64,000 bases of DNA, from assembly GCF_916700565.1 (NCBI RefSeq), contig NZ_CAKAKO010000001.1, positions 124,001-188,000 on the forward strand, in the 5' to 3' direction. Positions 36,900-40,998 of this stretch are shown here, one piece after another (position 1 is the stretch's first letter; each line of letters starts with the position of its first letter). This DNA comes from Xenophilus sp. Marseille-Q4582. Its GTDB lineage: Bacteria > Pseudomonadota > Gammaproteobacteria > Burkholderiales > Burkholderiaceae_C. The notes beneath the pieces are model-generated. The model did not search any database and was not told the DNA's origin. It saw only the letters and a program-made list of their open reading frames with translations. Both the position numbers and the translations under genes were made by a program.

Positions 36900-37034
36900 C
36901 GGAACAAGGGCAACAAGAGGCGCAGGCTCTGTCGCCGGCAGGCCGCTGCCTGGCGCGGGCCCTGCGCCTGGACAGGAAAGCAGCGGCGGATGCTACGGGC
37001 GCAACGCCCTGCCGGCCATGGGGGCTTTCCTTAG

Positions 37035-37044
37035 AAAGCGCTTT
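37035..37044. promoter_or_regulatory. LacI-family-like operator ahead of the TRAP operon
   Basis: AAAGCGCTTT, a perfect 10-bp palindrome with TTAG and GGGC flanks, lies upstream of dctQ. The central CG with A/T arms matches the general LacI/PurR/GalR operator form. No LacI-family gene is present in the window. Confidence 0.4.
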
Positions 37045-37130
37045 GGGCGACAGCGCTGGATGACCGCTGCAGGACAGCAAAAGACAGCGCGAAGGCCCCG
37101 CAGGCGGGGCGCGACCGCGATAGTATCTGT

Positions 37131-37138
37131 ACATGCAT
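37131..37138 (+). repeat. IS target-site duplication, left
   Basis: ACATGCAT, identical to 38227-38234, flanks the IS. An 8-bp duplication is typical of the IS1595 family. Confidence 0.9.
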
Positions 37139-37173
37139 ATGGGGTATCCTGTTAGCTCCAGGATGCCCAAAAA

Positions 37174-38169
37174 GTGCTGGATAAATATACAGCAATCGAC
37201 TCCGGCGGAGTCAACCCCTATCCGCGCACGTGGAGCGAATTTCTCGCCCGCTTTCCGACTGAGGAGGCCTGCCTCACCTACCTGGAGGCGTTGCGTTGGC
37301 CGCAGGGGTTCGTCTGCCCGCGTTGCGCAGTCGCATCCTCGCCTTCACGCGTCAGTCGCGGTCGGCTGCTGTGCAAAGACTGTGGCCATCAGAGTACGGT
37401 CACCGCAGGCACGATCTTCGACAAGACGCGCACGCCACTGCGGGTGTGGCTGGCTGGCGCCTGGTACGTGACCAACCAGAAGCTGGGGGTCAGCGCGCTT
37501 GGCCTACAGCGGGTGCTGGGGCTGGGTGGCTATCAGACAGCGTGGACGATGCTGCATCGGTTCCGCAAGGCGATGGTCCGCCTGGATCGGGAGCGGCTGG
37601 GCGGATTGGTCGAGGTCGACGAAACCTACCTGGCGATCACCGACCGTGAAGCGCCCATCTCCAAGGCCAAGCGCAAGAACAACACCAGCAAGGTGCTCAT
37701 CGCCATAGCCGTGGAGGTGCATGAGCCCAAGGGGTTCGGCCGCATCCGGCTGCAGCGCGTCGACAGCGACGCGGACGTCTGCGTCGTGCCATTCGTCGAG
37801 GCGAACATCGAACCAGGCTCCGTGGTGAGGACCGACGGCTCGGCGGCTTACCGTTCGTTGACGCAGCGCGGCTACACCCACCAGCGCACCGTCATGCTGG
37901 GCTCCGACGTTCCCGCTCACGTCTCCATGGTCGGCGTCCATCGCGTGGCATCGCTGGTCAAGCGATGGATCCTCGGAACCCACCATGGCGCTGTCCAGCC
38001 GGGCCATCTCGACGCCTACCTGGACGAGTTCGTCTTCCGCTTCAACCGGCGGACCTCCGGCTCTCGTGGTCTGCTGTTCTACCGGCTGCTGCAGCAAGCC
38101 GTCATCACCGATCCGCTCACTTACAACGATGTCGTCAGTCGGCAACCCGTGGTTGCCAACTCGGAGTAG
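37174..38169 (+). CDS. IS1595-family transposase
   Basis: This 331-aa transposase has an N-terminal zinc ribbon (CPRC near residue 48 and CKDC near residue 68) and an ISXO2-type DDE domain. The acidic residues appear in GLVEVDETYLA and VVRTDGSAAYRSL, and the third catalytic region is near FVFRFNRRTSG. GTG is used as start, 14 nt inside the left inverted repeat. No frameshift or stop interrupts the gene, so the element is probably still active. It points toward the radical SAM gene and could supply read-through transcription. Confidence 0.92.
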   Translation: MLDKYTAIDSGGVNPYPRTWSEFLARFPTEEACLTYLEALRWPQGFVCPRCAVASSPSRVSRGRLLCKDCGHQSTVTAGTIFDKTRTPLRVWLAGAWYVTNQKLGVSALGLQRVLGLGGYQTAWTMLHRFRKAMVRLDRERLGGLVEVDETYLAITDREAPISKAKRKNNTSKVLIAIAVEVHEPKGFGRIRLQRVDSDADVCVVPFVEANIEPGSVVRTDGSAAYRSLTQRGYTHQRTVMLGSDVPAHVSMVGVHRVASLVKRWILGTHHGAVQPGHLDAYLDEFVFRFNRRTSGSRGLLFYRLLQQAVITDPLTYNDVVSRQPVVANSE

Positions 38170-38204
38170 GATGGCTGTATGAACATCCAGCAGTTGGCTC
38201 GAAT

Positions 38205-38226
38205 TGGAGCTAATTGGATACCCCAT
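38205..38226 (-). repeat. IS right terminal inverted repeat
   Basis: Reads inward as ATGGGGTATCCAATTAGCTC and matches the left end (37139-37160) at 20 of 22 positions. Confidence 0.9.
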
Positions 38227-38234
38227 ACATGCAT
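38227..38234 (+). repeat. IS target-site duplication, right
   Basis: ACATGCAT, identical to the left copy and followed directly by ACAG, the right half of the LexA-type box. Confidence 0.9.
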
Positions 38235-38256
38235 ACAGTAATTCCGCGCTGAGGCC

Positions 38257-39516
38257 ATGGAGCTGCGCGACAAGCTGGCGATCCTGGCGGACGCCGCCAA
38301 GTACGACGCCTCGTGCGCGTCCAGCGGCACGAACGCGCGCGACTCGCGCGGCGGGCGCGGCATCGGCTCCACCGAAGGCATGGGCATCTGCCACAGCTAC
38401 GCGCCCGACGGGCGCTGCATCTCGCTGCTCAAGATCCTGCTGACCAACCATTGCCAGTACGACTGCCTGTACTGCGTGAACCGGGCGTCGAGCAACGTGC
38501 CGCGCGCCCGGCTGCGCGCGCACGAGGTGGTGCAGCTCACGCTGGACTTTTACCGCCGCAACTGCATCGAGGGCCTGTTCCTCTCCAGCGGCATCGTCAA
38601 GTCGCCCGACCACACGATGGAGCAGGTGGTGGAGGTGGCGCGCTCGCTGCGCGAAGACCATGACTTCCGTGGCTACATCCACTTGAAGACCATCCCGGAC
38701 GCCAGCCCCGAGCTGATCGCGCGCGCCGGCCTTTATGCCGACCGGCTCAGCATCAACGTCGAGATGCCCACCACCGAAGGGCTGCGGTCGCTCGCGCCCG
38801 AGAAGGACGAAAGCGCGATCCGCCGCTCGATGGCGCGGCTGCGCCTGCAGATCGACGCCACGCGCGAAGAGCGGCGGCGGATGGTGCCGATCCGCGCCTT
38901 GCCCGGCGCCCCGGCCGTGGCTGCGAAGCCGCAGCCCTTCGCGCCCGCCGGCCAGAGCACGCAGATGATCGTGGGCGCCGACGCCACGGACGACCGCCGC
39001 ATCCTGGCCACCAGCGCCACGCTCTACGGCGCCTACCGGCTGCGCCGGGTGTACTACTCGGCCTTCAGCCCCATTCCCGACGCGGCGCGGGCGCTGCCGC
39101 TGGTCGCGCCGCCGCTGATGCGCGAGCACCGGCTGTACCAGGCCGACTGGCTCATGCGCTTCTACGGCTTCGAGCACCAGGAGATCGTGCCGGCCGCCGA
39201 TGGACTGCTGCGCCTGGATGTGGACCCGAAGATGGCCTGGGCGTTGGCGCATGCCGAGCGCTTTCCGGTCGACCTGAACCGCGCGCCGCGCGAGATGCTG
39301 CTGCGCGTGCCGGGCCTCGGCGTGACCGCCGTGGAGCGCCTGCTGCAGGCGCGCCGGGTGCGCCGCCTGCGCGCCGACGACCTGCGCGCGCTGCGCGTGC
39401 CCACGCGCAAGGTGCTGCCCTTCGTGGTCGCGGACGGGCACCGGCCGGCAGCGGGCGATGCGAACCGGGTGGCACGGCTGGCGGCGGCGGCGCCCCGGCA
39501 AGCCTCGCTGTTCTGA
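38257..39516 (+). CDS. Putative DNA modification/repair radical SAM protein
   Basis: This 419-aa radical SAM enzyme has the iron-sulfur motif CxxxCxxC in NHCQYDCLYCVN (C66, C70, C73). A C-terminal helix-hairpin-helix region (MLLRVPGLGVTAVERLLQAR) would contact DNA. It matches the family of radical SAM proteins that is encoded beside UdgX and DUF4130 proteins; the reaction is not known, but DNA repair or modification is the family prediction. The next gene, 9 nt later, is such a UdgX protein. A reconstructed LexA box lies directly upstream, now interrupted by an IS. Confidence 0.9.
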   Translation: MELRDKLAILADAAKYDASCASSGTNARDSRGGRGIGSTEGMGICHSYAPDGRCISLLKILLTNHCQYDCLYCVNRASSNVPRARLRAHEVVQLTLDFYRRNCIEGLFLSSGIVKSPDHTMEQVVEVARSLREDHDFRGYIHLKTIPDASPELIARAGLYADRLSINVEMPTTEGLRSLAPEKDESAIRRSMARLRLQIDATREERRRMVPIRALPGAPAVAAKPQPFAPAGQSTQMIVGADATDDRRILATSATLYGAYRLRRVYYSAFSPIPDAARALPLVAPPLMREHRLYQADWLMRFYGFEHQEIVPAADGLLRLDVDPKMAWALAHAERFPVDLNRAPREMLLRVPGLGVTAVERLLQARRVRRLRADDLRALRVPTRKVLPFVVADGHRPAAGDANRVARLAAAAPRQASLF

Positions 39517-39525
39517 GGGGGGCTG

Positions 39526-40998
39526 ATGCAGGTGCGCCTGATCGATCCCATCGATCTCGAAGGCTTTCGGCAACGGGCGCGGCGACTGCTCGCGGCGCGC
39601 GTGCCGCCGCAGGAGGTGCATTGGTGCGAGGGGGCGGGGGAAGGAGGGTTCGAGGCTGATGCGCCCGACGATCTGTGGGCTTCCGGGCCCGCGGCGGCCA
39701 CGACCGCGGCTGCGCGCGACGTCGCCCCGCGTGTGCCCGCCGCCTTCCTCGACCTGTGCCGCCGCGTCATCCTGCACCGCGACCCGCAGCGGCTGGATTT
39801 GCTCTACCGCTTGCTCTGGCGGCTGGTGCACGAACCCGCGCTGCGCCACGACCCGCTCGACGCCGACCGGCTGCTGGCGCAGCGCATGGCCCGCGCCGTC
39901 GGCCGCGACATGCACAAGATGCGCGCCTTCGTGCGTTTCACGACCGTGCAGGAGGAGGGCGGCGCCACGCGGCACGTGGCCTGGTTCGAGCCCGAGCACC
40001 GCATCGTCGAAGCCAACGCGCCCTTCTTCGCGCGCCGCTTCGCCCAGATGCGCTGGGCGATCCTCACGCCGCAGCGCTGCGTGGCCTGGGACGGCCAGGC
40101 GCTGCGCTTCGAGCCGGGCGCCGACCGGTCCGCGAAGCCGCCGCCCGATGCCGGCGAGGCGCTGTGGCTCACCTACTACGAACACATCTTCAACCCCGCG
40201 CGCCTCAAGCTGGCCATGATGCGGCGCGAGATGCCGGTGCGCTACTGGAAGAACCTGCCCGAGGCGGCGCTGATCGCCCCGCTGTCGGCGGCGGCGCAGG
40301 CGCGCAGCCAGCAGATGATCGAGGCGCCCGCCACCGCGCCGCGCCGCATCCGCGCACCGCAGCAGATCCATGTCGTGCCCGCCGCCGGCGTGGCGCCCGT
40401 CAGCCTGGACGAGCTGCGCGCCGCCGCCCATGCCTGCCGCGCCTGCCCGATCGGCGCGCTGGCCACCCAGGCCGTGTGCGGGGAAGGGCCGCTGGCGCCG
40501 GCCCACATGCTGGTCGGCGAGCAGCCGGGCGACCAGGAAGACCTGTCGGGCCGCCCCTTCGTCGGCCCGGCCGGCCAGTTGCTGGACCGGGCCATGGCCG
40601 AACTGGGCTGGCCGCGCGAGAGCGTCTACCTGGCCAATGCCGTCAAGCATTTCAAGTTCGAGCTGCGCGGCAAGCGGCGCATGCACAAGACGGCCGGCCA
40701 GCGCGAGGCCCTGGCCTGTGCGCCCTGGCTCGCGCAGGAGATCGATCTGGTGCAGCCGCAGGCGCTGGTGGCGCTGGGCGCCACGGCGGCACGCACGCTG
40801 CTGGGCCGGCCCGTCGCCGTGCAGGCCGAGCGCGGCCGCTGGCTGCGCGAGCGCGCCGATGGCCGCCCCGTGTGGGTCACGCTGCATCCGTCGGCCCTGC
40901 TGCGCCTGCCCGACCCCGAGCGGCCCCAGGCCTGGCGGCAGTGGCTGGCGGACCTGGCGCGGGCCCGTGAAGGGGCCGCGCCCCTGCAGCCGGCCTGA
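39526..40998 (+). CDS. UdgX-family uracil-DNA glycosylase fused to a DUF4130 domain
   Basis: This 490-aa protein joins an N-terminal DUF4130 domain (residues 1 to about 280: [20 protein letters not shown], then WAILTPQRC and [16 protein letters not shown]) to a UdgX domain. UdgX motifs are [21 protein letters not shown] (near residue 330), the R-loop KRRMHKTA with His387, and [11 protein letters not shown] (near 454). In characterised UdgX the R-loop His forms a covalent bond with the sugar after uracil removal. CRAC plus later Cys residues suit an iron-sulfur cluster. Co-transcribed with the radical SAM gene. Confidence 0.92.

Follow-up and report, generated by a model that had tools for sequence, protein, structure and literature searches.

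An ISCsp2-like clade of IS1595-family insertion sequences probably site-specific for LexA operators

In the window (the whole stretch of 64,000 nucleotides analysed here, from Xenophilus sp. Marseille-Q4582), we detected a complete 1088-bp IS1595-family element that splits a predicted LexA operator and belongs to an ISCsp2-like clade. At a probability that we put at roughly 0.8, this clade is site-specific for the LexA operator, and the target dyad is most likely read directly by the transposase. The split site is exact. The left half-site CTGT (37127..37130), assigned from the coordinates and from the empty site in IS-free genus-mates, is followed by the left copy of an 8-bp target-site duplication, ACATGCAT (37131..37138), the element itself (37139..38226, plus strand), the right copy of the duplication (38227..38234) and the right half-site ACAG (38235..38238). 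The duplication is therefore the spacer of the predicted operator CTGT-ACATGCAT-ACAG, and the coordinates bear out the initial annotation, which had placed an IS1595 element exactly in the spacer of a LexA-type box. The ATG of a radical-SAM gene lies at 38257, 18 nt past ACAG of the split box. The gene encodes an intact putative DNA repair protein of 419 aa (TIGR03916; 38257..39516, plus strand) and is followed by an intact gene for a 490-aa fusion of TIGR03915 and UdgX (39526..40998, plus strand), profile matches that agree with the radical SAM/UdgX repair pair read there earlier.

The transposase (37174..38169, plus strand, listed with a GTG start) is intact at 331 aa and matches the IS1595 profile NF033547 at 182.7 bits (cut-off 75), PF12762 at 125 bits (cut-off 27) and the zinc ribbon PF12760 at 61.4 bits (cut-off 25.4). 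As characteristic of IS1595, the protein has an RNase H-like catalytic domain with conserved catalytic residues (the fold comparison concerned the catalytic domain only, not the N-terminal half); among solved structures, its best sequence match has an E value of 0.18. Equally characteristic are the 8-bp duplication on both sides and the matching terminal inverted repeats (left, 37139..37162, plus strand; right, 38203..38226, minus strand), which agree at 14 of the 16 outermost bases, each element end beginning with ATGGGGTATCC. The element had no blastn match at E 1e-5 in the E. coli genomes of the collection, and the transposase none in phage records at E 1e-30.

The box upstream of the radical-SAM gene was compared in relatives. 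Of 15 genus genomes compared, counting that of the window, 14 have the gene, and a box of the form CTGT-N8-CCAG lies upstream of it in each of the 13 IS-free genus-mates among them. According to the initial annotation, removal of the element restores CTGT-N8-ACAG 18 nt before the radical-SAM gene; in the nearest genus-mate (protein 91% identical), the empty site CTGT-TCATGCAT-CCAG likewise lies 18 nt before the ATG. Among more distant loci, a perfect CTGT-N8-ACAG occurs within 260 nt in 19 of 80, and CTGT-N8-[A/C]CAG within 110 nt in 27 of the first 49. The 22 box-less loci among these 49 are from 18 alpha- or gamma-proteobacteria, as judged by record title, and four beta-proteobacteria (L004, L014, L024, and L026). 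The LexA boxes of those alpha- and gamma-proteobacteria differ. CTGT-N8-ACAG is given as the beta/gamma-proteobacterial LexA consensus in the available passages of PMC13393415. At the level of sequence, these comparisons support the view that the site restored at the window locus would be a conserved LexA-type box.

Four copies of the element, 98-100% identical, and one 74%-identical relative are present in the host genome. All five lie in CTGT-N8-ACAG, with N8 being the duplication, while the uninterrupted motif is found at 26 places in the 5.54-Mb genome (9 for a backward-pattern control). Scored with a LexA matrix (built from 20 distinct boxes of relatives), the five split sites reach 17.1 to 24.4, and no site of at least 17 turned up in 5.5 Mb simulated from the dinucleotide content of the window. 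The location of the host copies in CTGT-N8-ACAG is far beyond chance. A single chance insertion, in line with the framing of the initial annotation, could have been kept later since a derepressed radical-SAM/UdgX operon was useful, and the box that is conserved in the IS-free genus-mates and split here speaks for that account; however, four further host copies, like those in other genomes, occupy sites of this kind. With all five host copies in boxes, we dropped this explanation, whose probability is practically negligible.

In a census that covered contigs C1-C4 and the first 140 kb of C6 by the pattern CTGKWN6WMCAG only and the remainder by the matrix, and that excluded boxes inside the element, five of the eight host boxes scoring at least 15 (a threshold of our own choice) are split. 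The pattern search gave 63 places, 50 of which were listed, and the backward control 34. The three whole boxes are those of lexA and of two genes named by reading, one ImuA-like and one parE-like. The ImuA-like ORF (L243, G000 C3:404138) is a second one in this genome and has an intact, very strong box, another ImuA locus being split by the 74%-identical IS; the parE-like ORF (L277, G000 C6, about 616 kb) reads like topoisomerase IV subunit B and lies about 50 nt after a LexA-like box scoring 15.5. The box of the recA-like gene is also whole and scores only 11.9. None of the five host copies is in the poorly scoring CTGT-N8-ACAG sites of the same genome, which would fit selection, an involvement of LexA, or a preference for AT-rich spacers. 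An unrelated repeat, made up of a block with CTGTGGTGGTGAACAG and a recurring ORF of at most about 500 aa, was seen at ten host places (G000 C2, C6, and C10; L088-L093, L095, and L100).

The same target was found across relatives. At identities of at least 60%, all 19 two-sided sites fit CTG-N10-CAG and 18 of the 19 fit the stricter CTG[T/G]-N8-[A/C]CAG, whereas none of the 16 sites of IS1595 elements below 60% fits CTG-N10-CAG (Fisher p = 4.2e-9), the 60% line having been drawn after the sites were seen. Each distinct insertion was counted once, with an exact 8-bp duplication and matching ends, and the host genome was included. Adding L085, which passes at a looser repeat threshold, gives 20 of 20 and, for the strict form, 19 of 20. 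One genome has three copies at 50% identity in three unrelated target sequences. A preference for AT-rich promoter palindromes, among which SOS boxes would merely be common, could in principle mimic LexA-box targeting. The IS1595-family ISApl4 favours A/T-rich 8-bp duplications (available passages of PMC12561309), and the mean A+T of the duplications is 0.82 in the clade vs 0.70 outside. Yet a pure AT preference gives no fixed flanks, whereas CTG and CAG flank every two-sided clade site and not one of those outside, and we regard this alternative as very improbable. Two clade members are at sites with poor LexA scores (6.9 and 5.7) that retain CTG...CAG.

These counts draw on 399 genomes of the family, 369 of the class, 398 of the phylum, and 399 of the order, each set a sample of a larger group and some genomes being in more than one, on 28 further-genus genomes (not a sample), and on plasmids and viral contigs. 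From the plasmids, 14 of the 36 matching records were taken in, including six of the nine at 60% identity or more. All listed genome places with at least 60% identity were covered, and those at lower identity in part (for G542, three of the four copies); the sites recovered are those that survived selection. Outside the two-sided count are 34 list entries at 60% or more without a passing duplication, many of them repeats of one place; they include L085 and the clade loci without a readable end (L122/L334, L125, L164, L189, and L230). Seven elements with one readable end have CTGT or CTGG adjoining (L119, L131, L184, L185, L187, L238, and L333). A rearranged plasmid copy (L194) has CTGT at both ends with differing spacers, and L121/L333, which are one place, have CTGG at one end and TTGT at the other, with a mismatched duplication. 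Three viral-contig ends (L237, L239, and L241), detected solely through the repeat motif, do not adjoin CTG. Of these, L237 and L241 appear to be the opposite flanks of a single insertion, and the L241 contig encodes a 23-residue piece of a transposase that is 74% identical to the window's (L343). The pair is probably a real exception within the clade, so that specificity is high and probably not absolute. Elsewhere in the family, a distant IS1595 copy on a Rhodococcus plasmid (L229) is flanked by the two arms of a perfect 10-bp inverted repeat that belongs to another sequence, a hint that palindromes are targeted there too.

A maximum-likelihood tree of 81 transposases placed all 18 target-labelled rows, including a few with a single readable end, in one clade with support of 100/98. 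This clade has 25 rows (18 target, 7 labelled unresolved, and 0 other), and the 15 rows with other targets, two of which (L139 and L145) rest on weaker repeat matches, are all outside. The tree program counted eight label changes for the target group because rows labelled unresolved were treated as another label; read from the content of the clade, targeting would have a single origin. W20, S251, and five more residues are fixed within the targeting clade and rare outside.

A repair- or SOS-type gene is next to the split box at 10 of the 20 two-sided sites, the other 10 being without such an assignment. In the host, the genes downstream of the split boxes encode the TIGR03916 protein, a radical-SAM protein of the PA0069 family, a DEAD_2 (DinG/Rad3-like) helicase, and ImuA, and the fifth box lies before an ORF with an Xre/ParS antitoxin domain. 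In other genomes, boxes are split upstream of recA, of lexA itself, of a Y-family polymerase gene, of two PA0069 radical-SAM genes, and of a fragment with a DnaE2-type PHP domain, on the other side of which is an ORF that reads like an IS91 transposase. Further split boxes lie upstream of a PrimPol gene, a DUF4007 gene, a tnpB-like ORF (L130), and an annotated IS91-family transposase gene, and one two-sided site, that with a LexA score of 6.9, is inside an ISL3-like reading frame (by reading). No neighbour gene was assignable at L159, L186, and L123; at L194, the adjoining gene encodes an SOS response-associated peptidase (SRAP).

Several of these loci have features of their own. At L128 (G377), the IS has split a perfect LexA-type box some 120 nt away from the DUF4007 gene; DUF4007 possibly belongs to a DNA-modification or defence island. 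In the same genome, which is from the host's family, two related copies (L124 and L130) occupy the same CTGG-N8-CCAG site upstream of tnpB-like ORFs (that of L124 recognised by eye), and the IS seems to be carried by, or repeatedly drawn to, an IS605-type element. On plasmids (L198, L199, L204, L205, and other copies), ISCsp2 adjoins a LexA-like half-site that immediately precedes an IS91-family transposase gene, which is ISPps1 where a name is given. The two seem to move as a unit, with the same junction recurring on several plasmids.

The two top LexA-matrix matches of the whole 64-kb window are both inside the element. The left palindrome, CTGGATAAATATACAG (37177..37192, score 22.5), is 38 bp from the tip, overlaps the start of the transposase gene and is partly coding; the right palindrome, CTGTATGAACATCCAG (38175..38190, score 20.9), is 36 bp from the tip and 66 nt before the radical-SAM ATG. 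Five checked relatives at 68-77% identity (L085, L118, L120 with its sister copies, L132, and L204) have similar palindromes at the same distance, scoring 5.4 to 18.2, with none at the right end of L132. Six checked relatives at 61-64% lack internal palindromes and keep the target, so targeting does not depend on the internal boxes. Their role may be that of LexA operators coupling the transposase to the SOS response, of a substitute operator for the downstream gene, or of transposase-binding sites. The initial annotation had missed both boxes, of which the right-end one may be a replacement operator for the radical-SAM gene. A possible, if tentative, extension is a double SOS wiring, in which the element would land in LexA operators and itself bear LexA operators near both ends, LexA silencing the transposase and shielding the targets. 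DNA damage, by destroying LexA, would then make transposase and vacant targets appear together, and the element's own end-box could return a disrupted repair gene to LexA, the element being a portable operator that rewires the SOS regulon.

LexA-like boxes near the element's own ends would also suit recruitment by LexA, in which operator-bound LexA tethers the intasome and insertions gather at occupied operators; the five host copies, found at high LexA scores and at no poor CTGT-N8-ACAG site, point in the same direction. We nevertheless consider recruitment unlikely. Insertions are in one exact register within the operator, where LexA itself would sit, whereas tethering would be expected to scatter them nearby, and two members use poor LexA sites, one of them inside the reading frame of another mobile element. 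We favour direct reading by the transposase because the insertion and operator dyads coincide to the base in every two-sided case, and because the two poor LexA sites used keep CTG...CAG; the lack of host copies at poor LexA sites leaves room for help from LexA or for selection. In the mechanism that we infer, a symmetric transposase assembly would read the dyad CTG[T/G]-N8-[A/C]CAG directly and join the element ends at both CTGT/N8 borders. Through the 8-bp staggered cut, the operator spacer would become the target duplication, and the operator would be left as two half-sites separated by 1.1 kb.

At the window locus, the radical-SAM/UdgX operon would thereby lose its LexA operator together with its former upstream sequence, which is now 1.1 kb off. 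Its transcription would then depend on readthrough that starts in the co-directional IS or further upstream, with the right-end LexA-like box as a possible control, and the operon may be silenced, constitutive, or newly LexA-controlled. A simple scan found no plus-strand terminator-like site within the element and no sigma-70 promoter in 36950-38300 (0.2 expected). The same scan finds no promoter in the old upstream region either, and is thus too insensitive to judge outward transcription.

For an IS, the operator of a global stress regulator would represent a new target class. It predicts that the SOS regulons of related bacteria are rewired piecemeal, as with the five of eight host boxes split and the recA and lexA boxes split elsewhere. 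The clade would also provide a natural system in which to ask how one DNA sequence came to be recognised by both a transposase and a repressor, and it offers a target-specific transposase.

Among the matches listed in the open-licence PMC literature, as far as their available passages go, none describes an insertion sequence with LexA boxes as its chosen target. A named relative is ISCsp2, which appears in the available part of a paper on a degradation pathway (PMC8406286). It shares with the window element the transposase family and the terminal repeat motif, and its copy with an 8-bp duplication in CTGT-N8-ACAG starts 17 nt from an annotated IS91-family transposase gene; it differs in that the proteins are 73% identical, and the name is taken from the annotation of plasmid copies at that identity. 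REP-recognising elements (ISPsy8, ISPa11, ISPpu9, ISPpu10, and others) select a specific palindromic extragenic sequence for insertion, according to the available text of PMC1525189. Their target is a repeat family, whereas that of the window element is the operator of a global regulator. ISAjo2-related elements of the IS1202 family target dif and pdif, as described in the accessible portion of PMC10132070. They resemble the window element in targeting a site to which a DNA-binding protein of the host binds, but as far as that portion goes they insert in one orientation, 5 bp from the XerC site, and are of another family, whereas the window element splits the operator itself, a symmetric site. 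ISCR1, ISCR2, and ISCR8 are akin to IS91. They have a CTGT-N8-ACAG LexA box at the transposase promoter, through which LexA regulates the transposase (available passages of PMC13393415, which are silent on target choice); there LexA is the regulator of the transposase, whereas here LexA boxes are the target. Judged by these partial sources, insertion sequences that choose palindromes or recombinase sites, and LexA control of a transposase, are already known.
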